This document shows, piece by piece, positions 5,781 to 46,856 of a stretch of 47,895 nt of DNA; position 1 is the first letter of the stretch, and every line of letters begins with the position of its first letter. The DNA is from a virus, in the IMG/VR virus record IMGVR_UViG_3300035698_006765, positions 1 through 47,895 of that record; one strand, written 5' to 3'. The position numbers and the translations under genes are program-made. Under the pieces are notes generated by a model that made no database searches, was not told the origin of the DNA, and saw only the letters and a program-made list of their open reading frames with translations.

Positions 5781-7802
5781 TTATAATAGCCACTTCAAGC
5801 TTTCTTCGTTTCCGTTCACATTCATATTCAATGAATTATGAGCATTTGCATTGTTGCCGGTGTAAACGCCCGATGGGCCACCTACTTTCTGAAATAATCT
5901 AAGTGAATTTTTATTGAGTTCTATGCCGTCATTACGAAGTTTAAGTGCATAGTCTCTGATATATAATCCTATTGACCATGCCATTGTTAGGTCATCATTA
6001 TACCCACGTTGAGCTTCACATCTTGATCCTTTCCAAATAAACATGTACCATTCATCAACTAATCGTTGAGATTTGATAATACATGATTTTTCTCTACTAT
6101 ACATATCAAGTTTTGATATCAAAAGCGGGCGGGTTTTGCCGGACGTTGTAAATCCTGGCGTCATTTGCGCCTTATCTTTTATATCATATCCTTTTTCCAA
6201 TTGTACCGCGGCGTCCGTAACTCCTTCGTGTCTGTACGTGTAATATAAATTATTATATTCTCTGTCGATTGCAGGTTGTATCGCTGCCCAACCAATATTT
6301 GCATTTTCAATAACCAAAAGCGCATTATTGTATTCGGTGGCCACGTTGACCATCATATTACCGAATTCTTTTGTTCCAATTAGCCCCTTATATTCAGCTA
6401 CCTGCTCACACGCTTCAACATCTACTACGTGAAACGCAGAATAATCTGATGCGTCACCCCTTGCAACGTCAGCTACCAACATATAATCGCGTGAGTAATC
6501 GGGGTCTTTCCATACCCACAATTCACCGCCAGGACCTCTTTTTTCTTTTGGTTCGGAAACTTGGTTATCTTCATACCACTTTATTAATTCACCACGTATA
6601 AGTGTGTTACCAGATGAAATAAAATCACAATTATGAGAAACCACACCATCCACATTAAAGATATTACCATTATCTACTTCAACTATATCATATAATTCAA
6701 TGGATTTATGTATCAATTGTATGTTTACTACGGTTACATATTGTGTATCCGGTACATCGGAATCAATTAGAGATCCTACTTCCAATTTATTTGCTAATAT
6801 TTCCGCGCCATTATACATAAATGGATGCGTAGTAGAACATTTTAAAACGATATTATTGGATAATGATATAACGTAATGAGAAGCTTTTTCTAATTTACGG
6901 ATACCAGTAAATGGCTGATATCCACTTGGCGTTGATATTTCATACTGTAAGTTCTGTTTAAATATCATATTTGTATTATAAAGTTCCGATAATGTAATAT
7001 AAAATTCTTCTTTGGTTTTAGAATCACGTACTTTAATTCGGCTTTCGCCCCACAAACAATCGCATTCTTGAGCTGCCGCTCTTTCACCTAATAATTCGTC
7101 TTGTTCGTCTCTCCAAGATTGGTCTCTATCTGGGTGTACTGACCAATGGAGTCTAAGTGAATTAAACTGGGCTTTGGTTGAACCCTCTTCTGAGAACTTC
7201 CATTGCTTATGAAACCAATTACCAGTACCGTTTGGTGTTGATAATGCAATACACCTACCACCAGTAGCCAATGTTTGTTGCGCTGCAATCCAAATATCAT
7301 CGATATAATCAATGAACGCTGCTTCATCAAAAATAAGAAGCGAAAGCGCTTCCGATCTTCCTGATTGCGGAGTCGATGAAATGGCTTTTATTTGAGACCC
7401 GTTTTTGAATCTAAGCGACAATTTATTATCTGTATCCGTTTGTTCTTTTAACCAAGATGGTAAATAGTCATACATGACACGAACTTTAGTAACCATGTTT
7501 TTTGCTACATCCCTTGATGTAGCAATTACAAGTACGTTAAAGTCTTCTTTGAATGTCATTTGGTGTAATGCGTATCCAGCAACAAGCGTAGATATACCAA
7601 GCTGCCTAGACTTTAATATAATTTCATATCTATGAGATTGAATATCATCTAATGCTTTTTCTTGAAATGGATAAAGATTAAACAGCATTTTGCCCTGTGT
7701 TGGGTGCTGAATATGACAATACTTACGCATAAAGTATATTGGATCAGCTGCACACTTTTTGTACTCCGATGCTATAAGCTGTTTTAAATTAGGATTGCTC
7801 AT
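5781..7802 (-). CDS. 17: Terminase large subunit (gp17-like), intein-containing
   Basis: ATPase-nuclease that packages concatemeric DNA into proheads. The ORF encodes 673 residues, of which 249-391 are an intein; the spliced protein would be 530 residues. The ATPase domain shows the Walker A-like KSRQLGIST (64-72) and Walker B LLIFDEAAF with Asp159-Glu160. The nuclease domain shows LVADVARGDASDYSAF with candidate metal ligand Asp445. The intein separates AAAQECD from CDFISSGNT, near the ATPase-nuclease boundary. It lies 15 bases upstream of the portal gene and directly after the lysis-like genes. Splicing must occur for a normal terminase to form. Confidence 0.95.
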   Translation of the reverse strand: MSNPNLKQLIASEYKKCAADPIYFMRKYCHIQHPTQGKMLFNLYPFQEKALDDIQSHRYEIILKSRQLGISTLVAGYALHQMTFKEDFNVLVIATSRDVAKNMVTKVRVMYDYLPSWLKEQTDTDNKLSLRFKNGSQIKAISSTPQSGRSEALSLLIFDEAAFIDYIDDIWIAAQQTLATGGRCIALSTPNGTGNWFHKQWKFSEEGSTKAQFNSLRLHWSVHPDRDQSWRDEQDELLGERAAAQECDCLWGESRIKVRDSKTKEEFYITLSELYNTNMIFKQNLQYEISTPSGYQPFTGIRKLEKASHYVISLSNNIVLKCSTTHPFMYNGAEILANKLEVGSLIDSDVPDTQYVTVVNIQLIHKSIELYDIVEVDNGNIFNVDGVVSHNCDFISSGNTLIRGELIKWYEDNQVSEPKEKRGPGGELWVWKDPDYSRDYMLVADVARGDASDYSAFHVVDVEACEQVAEYKGLIGTKEFGNMMVNVATEYNNALLVIENANIGWAAIQPAIDREYNNLYYTYRHEGVTDAAVQLEKGYDIKDKAQMTPGFTTSGKTRPLLISKLDMYSREKSCIIKSQRLVDEWYMFIWKGSRCEAQRGYNDDLTMAWSIGLYIRDYALKLRNDGIELNKNSLRLFQKVGGPSGVYTGNNANAHNSLNMNVNGNEESLKWLL
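6630..7058 (-). mobile_element. Mini-intein in terminase (no endonuclease domain)
   Basis: In-frame 143-residue insertion. It starts with Cys (CLWGESRIKV, block A), contains block B with VLKCSTTHPF (TxxH), and has block F/G ELYDIVEVDN...GVVSHN. It ends in His-Asn followed by Cys as the +1 residue. These are the residues needed for standard class 1 splicing. About 143 residues is the size of a bare splicing domain, so the homing endonuclease has been lost or was never present. After splicing the host reads AQECD-CDFISS. Confidence 0.92.
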
Positions 7803-41608: not shown

Positions 41609-41630
41609 GTTAGAATGGGTCTAGTTAGCT

Positions 41631-41662
41631 AAAATAAGAATGGGGAAGCCGAAGCCTCCCCA
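41631..41662 (-). terminator. Intrinsic terminator with UUCG tetraloop
   Basis: On the minus strand GGGGAGGC-TTCG-GCTTCCCC forms an eight-pair stem (one G-U) capped by a UUCG loop, followed by TTCTTATTTT. It ends the structured RNA described at 41663-41880 and stops entry into the lysozyme gene. Confidence 0.85.
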
Positions 41663-41880
41663 TAATAACCTTTACCGGCGGTCATACCGGGAACCGTAAC
41701 GTAATCCTTTCGGATCAGGCTGCGATTGCAAACTGAGTGTCGCTGTTTAAGCGTGTGTAACCTCATAATGTCCGTTGTATGCTGTCAATACCGGTCTACC
41801 CCGTTTATCACTTACCTAGTGGAGTAGCCCGCATCCGAGAGCGGGGTCCAGACATATCGTATACATTAATCATCGGTTGC
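41663..41880 (-). ncRNA. Structured non-coding RNA, unknown family
   Basis: This roughly 220-base stretch has no real ORF and is far more GC-rich than its surroundings. Read on the minus strand it has a chain of compact hairpins: CCCGC/GCGGG (41831-41848 region), CACT/AGTG, CCGGTAT/ATAC..CGG, CGCT/AGCG, ATCC-GAAA-GGAT with a GNRA loop, and CGGT/ACCG. It ends in the UUCG terminator and is preceded by ATACTTATA at 41885-41893. T4 late-promoter spacing would start the RNA near 41880. It lacks the conserved ends of tmRNA, 6S RNA and RNase P RNA as I know them. I do not recognise the family. Confidence 0.65.
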
Positions 41881-41884
41881 GTCT

Positions 41885-41893
41885 TATAAGTAT
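41885..41893 (-). promoter_or_regulatory. Late-promoter-like element before the ncRNA
   Basis: The coding strand reads GTATACTTATAAGAC, about five bases before the inferred 5' end of the structured RNA. A second copy in the opposite orientation (GATATACTTATG on the plus strand) lies at about 41902-41913, making a small inverted arrangement. Confidence 0.45.
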
Positions 41894-41929
41894 ACCCGTT
41901 TTGATATACTTATGTGTTTTTTATAGATA

Positions 41930-42145
41930 TTATACCACATCGGGCATAGTAACTAATTCAACGTCTTTAAATGACATTTGAAACATACCTCTGATACCAG
42001 GCATGGTGAAAAATCCGTTTCCATCATGCATGTCATACGTCAATACAACTGTGTCGCCTTTTGCTGGATGGCCAAAAGCACCAAACGGTGGAGTATGATT
42101 TTTAACTACGTAAGTTACATTAATAACTTCGCTTGAATCTTTCAT
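41930..42145 (-). CDS. Small unknown protein
   Basis: This 71-residue, beta-rich protein begins MKDSSEVINVTYVVKNHTPP and contains FGAFGHPAKGDTVVLTYDMH. It reads as a compact beta domain, perhaps SH3-like. It begins at the stop of the GP88-like gene (one-base overlap) and precedes the ncRNA. No family assigned. Confidence 0.65.
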   Translation of the reverse strand: MKDSSEVINVTYVVKNHTPPFGAFGHPAKGDTVVLTYDMHDGNGFFTMPGIRGMFQMSFKDVELVTMPDVV

Positions 42146-42740
42146 TATTTTTGTTTTATGTTGTTATCAAGTAAGTAGAAACTTACATTTGGTTTTCGTG
42201 CCTCATCGTCGTTATAATCAATTGGTAAACCAATTGCGTCATCTTTACTTTTGATGACTATTGTATGCTTCAAATTAAATTCGGAAATTAATTCATCACT
42301 TCGCCCACCATAACTGGCGGTCAATACCAGATTATCTGGAATGTCATTAATTCTCTTAACCCAATATTTCAAGCTTTTAGTATAAGCCCAGAATTCAACA
42401 TTTGGATTATCTCTACATAATTGTAACCACATATCGAAATAAGCCTGAGAAAAAAGTCACCAGCTGAATGTATTCTAACTGATGTTGCTTTGTTAGGTAT
42501 AGTTGGTATACCACCGTCTTTAGCAAATTCAAAGTTATTCCATCTGTGTTGTCTTACACCAGGAAAACGTTCTGCACTTGCTGCGTAACATCGATAAGCT
42601 TTACTTTTGTTTTCAAACTTTCCTGTTATTCTATCTACCTTAACTAAACATTCATCGGCAAATGGACATGTAAACCCAGTAGGTAAATTCCATTCGTATA
42701 CGATTCCTGTATAGTAGGTTGTTTTCTTAACAAACTTCAC
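42145..42740 (-). pseudogene. GP88-like protein, interrupted by a one-base frameshift
   Basis: Two frames together form one protein. The first (42369-42740) has CPFADECLVKVDRITGKF, RCYAASAERFPGVRQHRWNN and VRIHSAGDFF, then drifts into unlikely sequence. The second frame continues SQAYFDMWLQLCRDNPNVEF and WAYTKSLKYWVKRI, ending near DNNIKQK. The order matches the phage 'Gene product 88' family, of unknown function with a conserved Cys-rich start. The break is at a six-base T run (42450-42455, A on the plus strand); one added T restores a reading frame of about 198 residues. It could be a sequencing error, a real mutation or a -1 ribosomal frameshift. The start overlaps the upstream gene. Confidence 0.7.
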
Positions 42741-44273: not shown

Positions 44274-44350
44274 TACTCCAGGTGGGACTCGAACCCACGT
44301 GTGACCAGCTACCCTTTCTACAAGATATAAGCTTGAGGGGATACAGGAGC
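44274..44350 (-). other. tRNA-like remnant (T-arm and acceptor end)
   Basis: Read on the minus strand, the 3' part is canonical: GTGGG-TTCGAGT-CCCAC (T-arm), then CTGGAGT-A as acceptor strand and discriminator. The 5' strand GCTCCTG pairs six of seven positions, one by G-U. The total of 77 bases is tRNA-sized. However, no good D-arm or anticodon stem can be drawn; GGGTAGCTGGTC looks like a D-arm fragment joined to the T-arm. It is best read as a decayed or rearranged tRNA gene. A tRNA-derived attachment core is less likely without an integrase. Confidence 0.5.
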
Positions 44351-44437: not shown

Positions 44438-45034
44438 TTATTTTATCAAATGAGCATTAGCTTCTCTGATACCTGAATTGGTTACATATACACAGTCGGG
44501 ATAAAATTCTTCAATATTTGGTGCACCACAATATGATAGTGCAGATCGTAATCCATCCAATATATCACTTATAATGTATTTAACTCCGCCCTTATATGGT
44601 ATTAATGCTGATTCACCTTCTACGTTACGTACAACACCGCTGGTGGCTGTTTTAACTTCAGCGGAAGCCGAACCCCTATATCGCTTGTATAGTCCGGTGT
44701 CGGTCTGTACAATCGTCCCCGGTGATTCTTCGGTTCCGGCTAACATAGAACCTAACATAACACACTGAGCACCGACAGCGAGCGCCTTAGCTATGTCACC
44801 ACTTGACCTAATGCCACCATCAGCCATAATTGGAACGCCGGGAGCCACCGTAGATATTTCATCTATACATGTTACGTTGGGTACTCCGAATCCGGTTTTG
44901 ATTCTTGTTGTACATAAAGAATTATGGACAATCGTTCCATTTATGTTGTATGTAAAATTATCATCTACTGCCAAATCAAAAACTTGTCCAGAATATGATT
45001 TTTTTTCAATTTTATTTATTCTTTTTAGTTTCAT
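44438..45034 (-). CDS. guaB (3' part): IMP dehydrogenase, C-terminal part of fractured gene
   Basis: This 198-residue ORF has residues 1-38 as a split-intein C-fragment and residues 39-198 as the C-extein. The extein starts SLCTTRIKTGFGVPN, the IMPDH active-site loop with the catalytic Cys (SxCxTR). It continues PIMADGGIRSSGDIAKALA, VMLGSMLAGTEESPG and KRYRGSASAEV, all IMPDH signatures. Trans-splicing with the N-part gives a 367-residue enzyme oxidising IMP to XMP for GTP synthesis. It starts in an ATGA overlap with the endonuclease gene. Confidence 0.93.
   Translation of the reverse strand: MKLKRINKIEKKSYSGQVFDLAVDDNFTYNINGTIVHNSLCTTRIKTGFGVPNVTCIDEISTVAPGVPIMADGGIRSSGDIAKALAVGAQCVMLGSMLAGTEESPGTIVQTDTGLYKRYRGSASAEVKTATSGVVRNVEGESALIPYKGGVKYIISDILDGLRSALSYCGAPNIEEFYPDCVYVTNSGIREANAHLIK
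44921..45034 (-). mobile_element. Split intein C-fragment (IMPDH)
   Basis: 38 residues with their own ATG: block F VFDLAVDDNFTYNINGT, block G IVHN, +1 Ser. Insertion is between GGG and SLCTTR in the IMPDH catalytic loop, the same site as the published IMPDH-1 split intein. Confidence 0.93.
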
Positions 45035-45867
45035 AAAGTTTTTAATTTGTTTTTGAATTTTCCATTATTAATTTCGTCTTCCCATATTCTAATTAACTTA
45101 AACCCACGAGATATAGCCCATTCTTCTTTTTCTTTATCTCTTTTTTGTTTAGATAACTGTATTTCATTGAGAACTTTCTTTCCACCCGAACCATCTAAGT
45201 TATACATATTCGGATTCCCGTGCCAATAATCACCATCAACTTCAATTAATATTCTTTTTTTTCTGATGATAAAATCATACTGATATGATGCCAATATTGC
45301 TGAGTAATCAAAATGTATATTCAACGACTTTAGATAATCATATATAATAGTTTCTATCTTATTCATCTTACAATTCATGAATTGTGACTTATGAGATTCC
45401 CTGGCTGCCTTTGCTTTTTCCCTACGATACCCAATTGGGTCTTTTTTCATTCTGTTTTTCTCTCTTATAGATGCTCTTTTACTCCAATCGTCGCGAGTAT
45501 TATCATCCATAGTTTCCCAATATACTCGGAGTTTTTCTTTAATAGTAATCATTGTTTTCTTTGTATGAGTTTTTCCATAGAAACCATTATTTTCACCCGA
45601 TACCAATTCACTCATATTTTTACGATATTCATCCGACTTCACAATACTATCATGCTTATCTTTAACTTTTGGACTATACATTGGATTTTTATATTTCATT
45701 ACACAATTTTTACATTCATACTTTTTTTCAAAAACCGATTTATCATACCATTTTCTTGAAATAAATTTATTGCAAGAAATACACTTAATTTTGTACCCAT
45801 CTTTAAGTGTATTTCTAGGCATGGCATCCGTAATTACTAAATCATTAACTAAAATTTCATTAATCAT
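45031..45867 (-). CDS. Free-standing homing endonuclease (Vsr/EDxHD-type)
   Basis: This 278-residue protein lies between the two IMPDH halves. The N-terminus has two CxxC knuckles (CISC and CKNC, about 30-60), then NUMOD3-like segments (GENNGFYGKTHTKKT and WSKRASIREK). The C-terminus carries a Vsr-like nuclease core: YDFIIRKKRILIEVDGDYWH, then EWAISRGFKLIRIWEDEI. This is the type described with fractured genes. I chose the ATG at 45867; the longer frame begins with TTG. The stop overlaps the start of the IMPDH C-part by ATGA. Confidence 0.85.
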   Translation of the reverse strand: MINEILVNDLVITDAMPRNTLKDGYKIKCISCNKFISRKWYDKSVFEKKYECKNCVMKYKNPMYSPKVKDKHDSIVKSDEYRKNMSELVSGENNGFYGKTHTKKTMITIKEKLRVYWETMDDNTRDDWSKRASIREKNRMKKDPIGYRREKAKAARESHKSQFMNCKMNKIETIIYDYLKSLNIHFDYSAILASYQYDFIIRKKRILIEVDGDYWHGNPNMYNLDGSGGKKVLNEIQLSKQKRDKEKEEWAISRGFKLIRIWEDEINNGKFKNKLKTL

Positions 45868-45887
45868 ATTTATACATTTTATCAAAG

Positions 45888-45905
45888 GGAATCACCACCG
45901 ATTCC
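45888..45905 (-). promoter_or_regulatory. Leader hairpin before IMPDH endonuclease gene
   Basis: GGAATC and GATTCC form a perfect six-pair stem with a six-base loop, directly after the promoter-like GATATTTATATATA and about 20 bases before the endonuclease ATG. It would be at the 5' end of a transcript started there and could modulate translation or stability. Confidence 0.45.
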
Positions 45906-45909
45906 TATA

Positions 45910-45918
45910 TATAAATAT
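45910..45918 (-). promoter_or_regulatory. Late-promoter-like element before endonuclease gene
   Basis: The coding strand reads GATATTTATATATA, identical over 14 bases to the element before the endonuclease in the ligase-like fractured gene. It lies 43 bases upstream of the ATG at 45867. Confidence 0.45.
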
Positions 45919-45932
45919 CATATAAATAAATT

Positions 45933-46856
45933 TTAATCTAATTCTATCAAAAAATATTCACCCGTCAAATCTTCTGCTTTAACCCATTCGGCATAATCGT
46001 GAATGTTATCATCCGTAACTAAATCAGTTTTACTTTGATGAACAACATAGAATTTATGATTAGCAGTTGCTTCAATACCATCTATATCATATACTTCATC
46101 AAAATTACCATATTCAAATTTATTGATAACAGGTTTCAGTTCACCTGTATGAGTATATACTTCATCACCTATTTCAACATCTTTAATTTTCTTCAATCCA
46201 TCAGATGTTTTAACTTTCATATTAGGCGTAAAACAGCCTCCGCCGATACCAACTCGAATACCATCAACTCCGTATTTAATAAGACGCTCGGCTGCTTGTG
46301 GTGTGGCAACATTACCAGCTATAACATCAACGTGCCCAAATTCATCTGTTTCTTTAATCCATTTAATCATGGCATGTACCTTTACATGATCTCCGTGTGC
46401 AACGTCAATTAAAATGACATTTACGCCAGCAGCGATTAAATCTGATGTTCGTTTTTTATCATCAATCGAAATACCAATAGCTGCCATTACCGGAGGCTTT
46501 ATATCAATCATTTCACTGGATGGACCTGAAGTATAATGATTCGTGTATCTATGAAACCTCCAAATTTTAGATGGGTTATGTACTATGTAATCAACTACCT
46601 TTATTACTTCATTACATTGCTTTTCAATAGACATAAATCTATGAATACATCCAACACCACCAACTTTATATAATTCGATTGCCATAACTGAATCACATAC
46701 TGTATCCATAGGTGACGCTACAATTGGAATTGCTAAATTATATCTCCGACTTAACTTGGTAGATAAATCCACATCTTTCCTACTATTAATTTCCGAATAC
46801 GATGGTACAAGTTGAATGTCATCGTATGTTAAATAAGGTGTTCTATTGATATCCAT
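45933..46856 (-). CDS. guaB (5' part): IMP dehydrogenase, N-terminal part of fractured gene
   Basis: This 307-residue ORF has residues 1-207 as the IMPDH N-extein: LTYDDIQLVPSYSEI, IPIVASPMDTV, GGVGCIHRFMS, NVILIDVAHGD, DVIAGNVATPQAAERLI and DGIRVGIGGG. Residues 208-307 are the intein N-fragment. Only about 35 residues (KVVDYIVHNPSKIWRF...) lie where cellular IMPDH has its tandem CBS regulatory domains, so this is a CBS-less, probably unregulated enzyme. It would raise the guanine nucleotide supply for replication. The upstream membrane-protein gene is head to tail with it. Confidence 0.93.
   Translation of the reverse strand: MDINRTPYLTYDDIQLVPSYSEINSRKDVDLSTKLSRRYNLAIPIVASPMDTVCDSVMAIELYKVGGVGCIHRFMSIEKQCNEVIKVVDYIVHNPSKIWRFHRYTNHYTSGPSSEMIDIKPPVMAAIGISIDDKKRTSDLIAAGVNVILIDVAHGDHVKVHAMIKWIKETDEFGHVDVIAGNVATPQAAERLIKYGVDGIRVGIGGGCFTPNMKVKTSDGLKKIKDVEIGDEVYTHTGELKPVINKFEYGNFDEVYDIDGIEATANHKFYVVHQSKTDLVTDDNIHDYAEWVKAEDLTGEYFLIELD
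45936..46235 (-). mobile_element. Split intein N-fragment (IMPDH)
   Basis: 100 residues starting CFTPNMKVKTSDGLKKIKDV (Cys1, block A), with block B IEATANHKFYVV (ANHKF) and ending FLIELD at the stop. Layout, insertion point and ending closely resemble the published IMPDH-1 N-fragment as I remember it. Confidence 0.93.

Follow-up and report, generated by a model that had tools for sequence, protein, structure and literature searches.

The window analysed here is a stretch of viral DNA of 47,895 nucleotides (nt) covering positions 1 to 47,895 of the IMG/VR virus record IMGVR_UViG_3300035698_006765, and our subject is a block at 41631-41893 that very probably represents a phage-encoded, circularly permuted (two-piece) transfer-messenger RNA (tmRNA, ssrA) gene. 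GC content is 50% across 41640-41868 compared with 34% in the window as a whole; in the window's list of open reading frames (ORFs) no credible ORF occupies the region 41609-41929, and a listed ORF of 45 amino acids extends into the terminator. The first-pass annotation of this DNA had described a GC-rich, gene-free block with many hairpins, and such a block is indeed present on the minus strand (41893-41631), where folding energy was better than that of dinucleotide shuffles (z -2.46, 2/200); the plus strand was rejected as the coding strand, since it showed no excess stability against shuffles (z 0.08). The GNRA loop mentioned in that annotation lies in the hairpin AUCC-GAAA-GGAU at 41715-41704 (minus), and its UUCG terminator was likewise confirmed (Table 1). 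A nucleotide search of the block against annotated phage records recovered only short, insignificant matches, many of them to the terminator hairpin.

A permissive Rfam scan of the block gave a full-length match to RF04321 (tmRNA_permuted) at 41868-41715 (43.0 bits, E 2e-7), with beta_tmRNA as the runner-up family. RF04321 is a merger of RF01849 (alpha), RF01850 (beta), and RF01851 (cyano), and its model rests exclusively on alpha, beta, and cyano sequences (PMC11915505). The window gene shares with this family the permuted order, in which the T-arm and acceptor 3′ strand precede the acceptor 5′ strand and D region, as well as the G3-U70 acceptor, the T-arm, the D-region signature, P2, and a tag frame; it departs from it in having GGUAUUGAC in place of GGUUUCGAC, an 8-nt T-loop, no encoded CCA, and a score of 43.0 bits where the cut-off is 47. 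In addition, a covariance model made from the permuted tmRNAs of six other contigs, with the window sequence excluded, recovered the locus at 41861-41773 with 56.1 bits (E 9e-12), while its next-best site in the window reached 17.4 bits and overlaps the tRNA-Leu gene. These two matches, together with covariation among relatives and a tag frame ending in Ala-Ala-stop, are the basis of our identification. The first-pass annotation was therefore wrong in stating that the block could not be matched to tmRNA, and its proposal of a new class of non-coding RNA is not supported, a known Rfam family being matched in substance, if below its cut-off.

Relatives were gathered from viral contigs by pattern and protein searches and from 296 Bacteroidota genomes by a scan; these genomes were taken from the phylum of a Prevotellaceae metagenome-assembled genome. 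Permuted tmRNAs were found in G001 (L002/L032), G008 (L012), G002 (L016), L040 (the same sequence as L045), L034, L055, L072, L073, and the prophage L075; two matches from a pattern scan of bacterial genomes both lay within protein genes, were no tmRNA, and were discarded. G001, G002, G008, and L040 score 53.7-68.1 bits against RF04321, all over the cut-off, and ARAGORN independently labels L075, L072, and L016 as tmRNA* with tags. The window gene has the same architecture as G001, G002, G008, L040, L072, L073, and L075, and CCA is unencoded in all of these, which is often the case among the relatives and the one-piece genes of Bacteroidota; most relatives also have the bulged U in P2, and several have UUAAA(C) or UAAAC ahead of the tag. 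They differ from the window in having a normal 7-nt T-loop in all cases and, in most, tags of 15-16 residues such as GKTIQMFNQPLRMVA. The spacer in relatives is ~22-199 nt long, measured from where the acceptor strand ends.

The check for covariation on related loci that the first-pass annotation had suggested revealed compensatory changes in an alignment of seven sequences. Across the proposed helices 94.7% of cells are paired, rising to 100% for the T-stem and acceptor, and both sides have changed in 10 pairs (24 cells); none of 500 shuffles matched the observed pairing, and slid controls were 46-55% paired. Double changes occur in all five T-stem pairs. In P2, where UAUG-CUG pairs with CAG-CAUA at 41784-41778 with support from covariation, the inner three pairs are formed in 100% of cells and the next four in 75%, as bulge-less sequences misfit that register; UAAUGU could additionally pair with ACAUUA at 41771-41766, as read from the sequence. 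The alanine identity pair G3-U70 appears as U-G at columns 40/49 in 7/7 sequences; for some relatives the search pattern preset the G side but not the U side. Likewise, the acceptor 5′ strand was partly preset by search patterns in several relatives, while the T-stem and most of the 3′ strand were free.

The resume codon was placed after CUUAAAC (CUUAAAC/AGC), its probable position by analogy with UUUAAAC/GGC and AAUAAAC/GGC in relatives; UAAAC also precedes the tag in G002 and L040. The tags of the window and its relatives close with -AA or -VA followed by a stop. Those of the relatives are mostly 15-16 residues long (GKTIQMFNQPLRMVA, GKSIKMSDQSLRMAA, GKVIQMNNAPVRLAA, and GKTIQMPERAQVNMAA; the L040 tag was read by eye), and G001, in which AUUAAA/GUA leads into the tag VKDNFAFAA, is the only relative with a short tag like that of the window.

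The gene is bounded by its own promoter-like motif and terminator, which supports the earlier view of the block as a discrete structured phage RNA gene. The upstream element is a copy of the motif ATA[CT]TTATA and ends 16 nt upstream of the first P2 base of the tmRNA. Over 72.5 kb, comprising the window and G004, a record of the same virus (99.96-100% identity over 35.4 kb), this motif has 21 copies on the coding strand and 1 on the other (p 1e-5); 17 of the 21 lie inside the 4.4% of DNA that is non-coding, and most are 13-60 nt upstream of gene starts. These patterns suggest that ATA[CT]TTATA is likely a phage promoter of this virus, and it may be a late promoter. The motif often reads TGATATTTATAT and is similar to T4's TATAAATA in reverse complement, and a perfect 9-bp inverted repeat, ATAAGTATA-N10-TATACTTAT, lies around the element at window positions 41886-41913. 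The T4 late box TATAAATA itself is not enriched (15 copies versus 15.6 expected), and none lies at most 60 nt upstream of the 50 gene starts tested. The first-pass suggestion of a promoter was thus right in substance, given the strand-specific motif copy just upstream of the tmRNA, but its T4-type late label is inexact. Terminator-like sites number 4 in a 2.1-kb region, compared with 0.9 expected.

Table 1 Features of the permuted tmRNA locus in the window.
Feature	Position	Strand	Basis
Promoter-like element ATACTTATA	41885..41893	minus	1 of 21 coding-strand ATA[CT]TTATA copies
P2 3′ strand (41868-41849) and GGAC, together the first part of the tRNA-like domain; UAAUGU..UAUG-U-CUG-GAC with bulged U	41846..41868	minus	RF04321 match start
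T-arm: CCCGC/GCGGG stem and unusual 8-nt loop UCUCGGAU	41828..41845	minus	stem paired in 7/7 sequences
Acceptor 3′ strand CUACUCC (41827-41821), discriminator A (A73), then CUA; holds U70	41817..41827	minus	alignment
14-nt spacer between halves	41803..41816	minus	between acceptor strands
Acceptor 5′ strand GGGGUAG	41796..41802	minus	7/7 pairs with 41827-41821, G3-U70 included
D-arm region ACCGGUAUUGA (tmRNA signature GGUNUUGAC)	41785..41795	minus	RF04321 and six-sequence model alignments
P2 5′ strand	41766..41784	minus	covariation and sequence reading
Tag frame AGC GAC ACU CAG UUU GCA AUC GCA GCC UGA (SDTQFAIAA, stop)	41715..41744	minus	frame and UGA stop
Hairpins 3′ of the tag: AUCC-GAAA-GGAU and CCGG-N8-CCGG	41675..41716	minus	folding and sequence of window alone
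Intrinsic terminator ATGGGGAGGC-UUCG-GCTTCCCCAT and T-rich tail	41631..41663	minus	hairpin z -4.1

Gene order around the locus is partly preserved in relatives. A GP88-family gene adjoins the tmRNA in the window as in G008, where the tmRNA follows directly downstream of it; the G008 protein has 76-77% identity to the window's two GP88 pieces. These pieces are two overlapping ORFs at 42145-42740 (minus) that a one-base shift near 42440 separates, in a T run with six T where seven would hold the frame; the gene is either misassembled here or broken. G001 keeps the gene order of the window's 36.5-38.7 kb, and its tmRNA sits among more than 20 tRNA genes. Elsewhere in the window, a tRNA-like sequence at 44274-44350 (minus) scores 26.9 bits (cut-off 29), with the anticodon loop CUUAUAU, no clear D-arm, a long insert ahead of the T-arm, and no call by ARAGORN; an IMP dehydrogenase gene at 44438-46856 (minus) is interrupted by an intein-like element with Hint/intein matches at both edges and another ORF between the two parts, and the terminase gene at 5781-7802 seems to contain a small intein. 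Other tmRNA forms were also seen in phages: LR756508.1, an uncultured phage of 484 kb with related portal and baseplate proteins, has a one-piece tmRNA at 92434-92880 and, at 414804-414915, another tmRNA match that is much shorter, and the viral contigs L058 (10744-10824) and L052 (1356-1438) hold very short tmRNA genes with no room for a tag (RF00023, 63 and 59 bits), resembling the tmRNA of mycobacteriophage DS6A, which is reported to consist of the tRNA-like domain only.

Several points weigh against the identification of a working permuted tmRNA gene. The RF04321 score is 4 bits below the curated cut-off of 47, no family reaches its Rfam gathering score within the block, and ARAGORN makes no tmRNA call there; over the whole window, Rfam at gathering scores and ARAGORN report a tRNA-Leu alone, the tmRNA being visible only in the permissive block scan. 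The T-loop UCUCGGAU has 8 nt and misfits the usual 7-nt pattern with A58 (UUCGANU in relatives), so that this copy could be weakened, decaying, or affected by a sequencing error, and a second copy of the locus was not found, as G004, the record with 99.96% identity, stops short of it. The folding covered hairpins, so that pseudoknots next to the tag are at most putative, and the transcript is predicted from the sequence. The lack of any family at gathering score would also suit a new, unrelated class of structured RNA, but this is almost certainly wrong, being refuted by the full-length tmRNA architecture and the compensatory changes relative to other permuted tmRNAs. It is also very improbable that the block is a scar or captured fragment from integration at a host tmRNA gene instead of a phage gene proper, given that the gene is complete, permuted, and equipped with the virus's own promoter motif and terminator, and that it sits among T4-like phage genes and has homologues in other contigs that adjoin the same phage genes.

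As to function, a permuted tmRNA acting in full trans-translation is the probable role of the window RNA. Transcription from the ATACTTATA motif would give a precursor of ~240 nt, from which host tRNA-processing enzymes would excise the spacer, as in known permuted tmRNAs, leaving a two-piece tmRNA kept together by the acceptor and P2 helices. A host enzyme would add CCA and host alanyl-tRNA synthetase (AlaRS) would charge the RNA, which with host SmpB would enter ribosomes stalled on stop-less messenger RNAs (mRNAs), add the tag (Ala)SDTQFAIAA, and release the ribosomes; spacer removal, alanylation, SmpB entry, tagging, and release are general tmRNA steps (PMC11915505, PMC9004378). A search of the phage records turned up no SmpB gene, and host SmpB would therefore serve. 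The benefit to the phage would most likely be that ribosomes stay available as mRNA breaks down in infection, with truncated proteins sent to proteolysis. The feature that could limit this function is the odd T-loop. With the score below threshold, it would fit a decaying or non-tagging permuted tmRNA, in which the T-loop change has cost charging or SmpB binding, or which titrates SmpB from the host tmRNA; a tmRNA cut down to the tRNA-like domain, such as that of phage DS6A, reportedly inhibits the host tmRNA (PMC4131195, PMC11915505). We consider such decay or titration unlikely, as this copy retains an intact acceptor stem, G3-U70, P2, tag frame and stop, promoter motif, and terminator.

We also considered the host and the origin of the permutation. 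Among isolates, Flavobacterium phage immuto and Microcystis phage Mel-JY01 gave the best matches to the portal, baseplate, and PhoH proteins, and in neither phage was a one-piece or permuted tmRNA convincingly found. A permuted tmRNA over the cut-off was present in 1 of the 296 Bacteroidota genomes, on a 1.6-Mb contig, where it adjoins phage-type helicase, polymerase, and exonuclease genes; the genome with this prophage permuted tmRNA also has a one-piece tmRNA with the tag GEDNYALAA. L081, a phage-like region of genome G250, has a permuted tmRNA with the tag GKVIQMNNAPVRLAA alongside a host one-piece tag GEDNYALAA. The one-piece form was found in 39 of the 41 Bacteroidota genomes sampled, and CUGGUUUUGACAGC and UUGUUUGGAC are common to the phage genes and a subset of Bacteroidota one-piece tmRNAs. 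A tree of the tRNA-like domain (66 columns) placed the phage permuted tmRNAs and this subset on one side of a branch with support of 76/83, the subset having been picked after the shared sequence had been seen and one window loop base having been omitted. The phage permuted tmRNAs thus appear to group, if weakly, with Bacteroidota one-piece tmRNAs, while a single clade of all permuted tmRNAs was not rejected (p 0.127). It is possible, though we propose it tentatively, that Bacteroidota phages carry a tmRNA lineage that was permuted independently of the alpha, beta, and cyano lineages, from the one-piece form of their hosts and with tags of its own, of which the window gene would be a divergent member under a phage promoter. 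Bacteroidota as host of this virus is therefore only a lead.

Phage tmRNAs, two-piece ones included, are already known, and the window gene is a divergent phage permuted tmRNA. One survey (2021-2022) recorded 133 tmRNA structures among 402 phages, 53 of these structures being two-piece and mostly aquatic (PMC9004378), and a 2025 tmRNA database holds 79 phage sequences (PMC11915505). Permuted tmRNAs occur in T4-like phages, as in the window, in Methylophilales phage Melnitz and other marine phages (PMC9004378), and cyanophage S-CAM1 has a permuted tmRNA-like locus (L127). The Melnitz gene is described as alphaproteobacterial in kind and as associated with an early promoter and a glutamine riboswitch (PMC9004378); in contrast, the promoter motif in the window is the virus's own, Rfam showed no riboswitch in the window, and the relatives point to Bacteroidota. 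The unusual aspect is the presence of related permuted genes in phages of Bacteroidota, bacteria that normally have the unswapped form.

These results indicate that there are permuted phage tmRNAs that ARAGORN and Rfam cut-offs overlook, and they extend permuted tmRNAs to T4-like phages whose best isolate matches include Flavobacterium phage immuto. If the permutation was independent, tmRNA genes would have been permuted more often than in the three recognised bacterial lineages. The locus could also help to test why a phage carries a ribosome-rescue RNA of its own, tag included.
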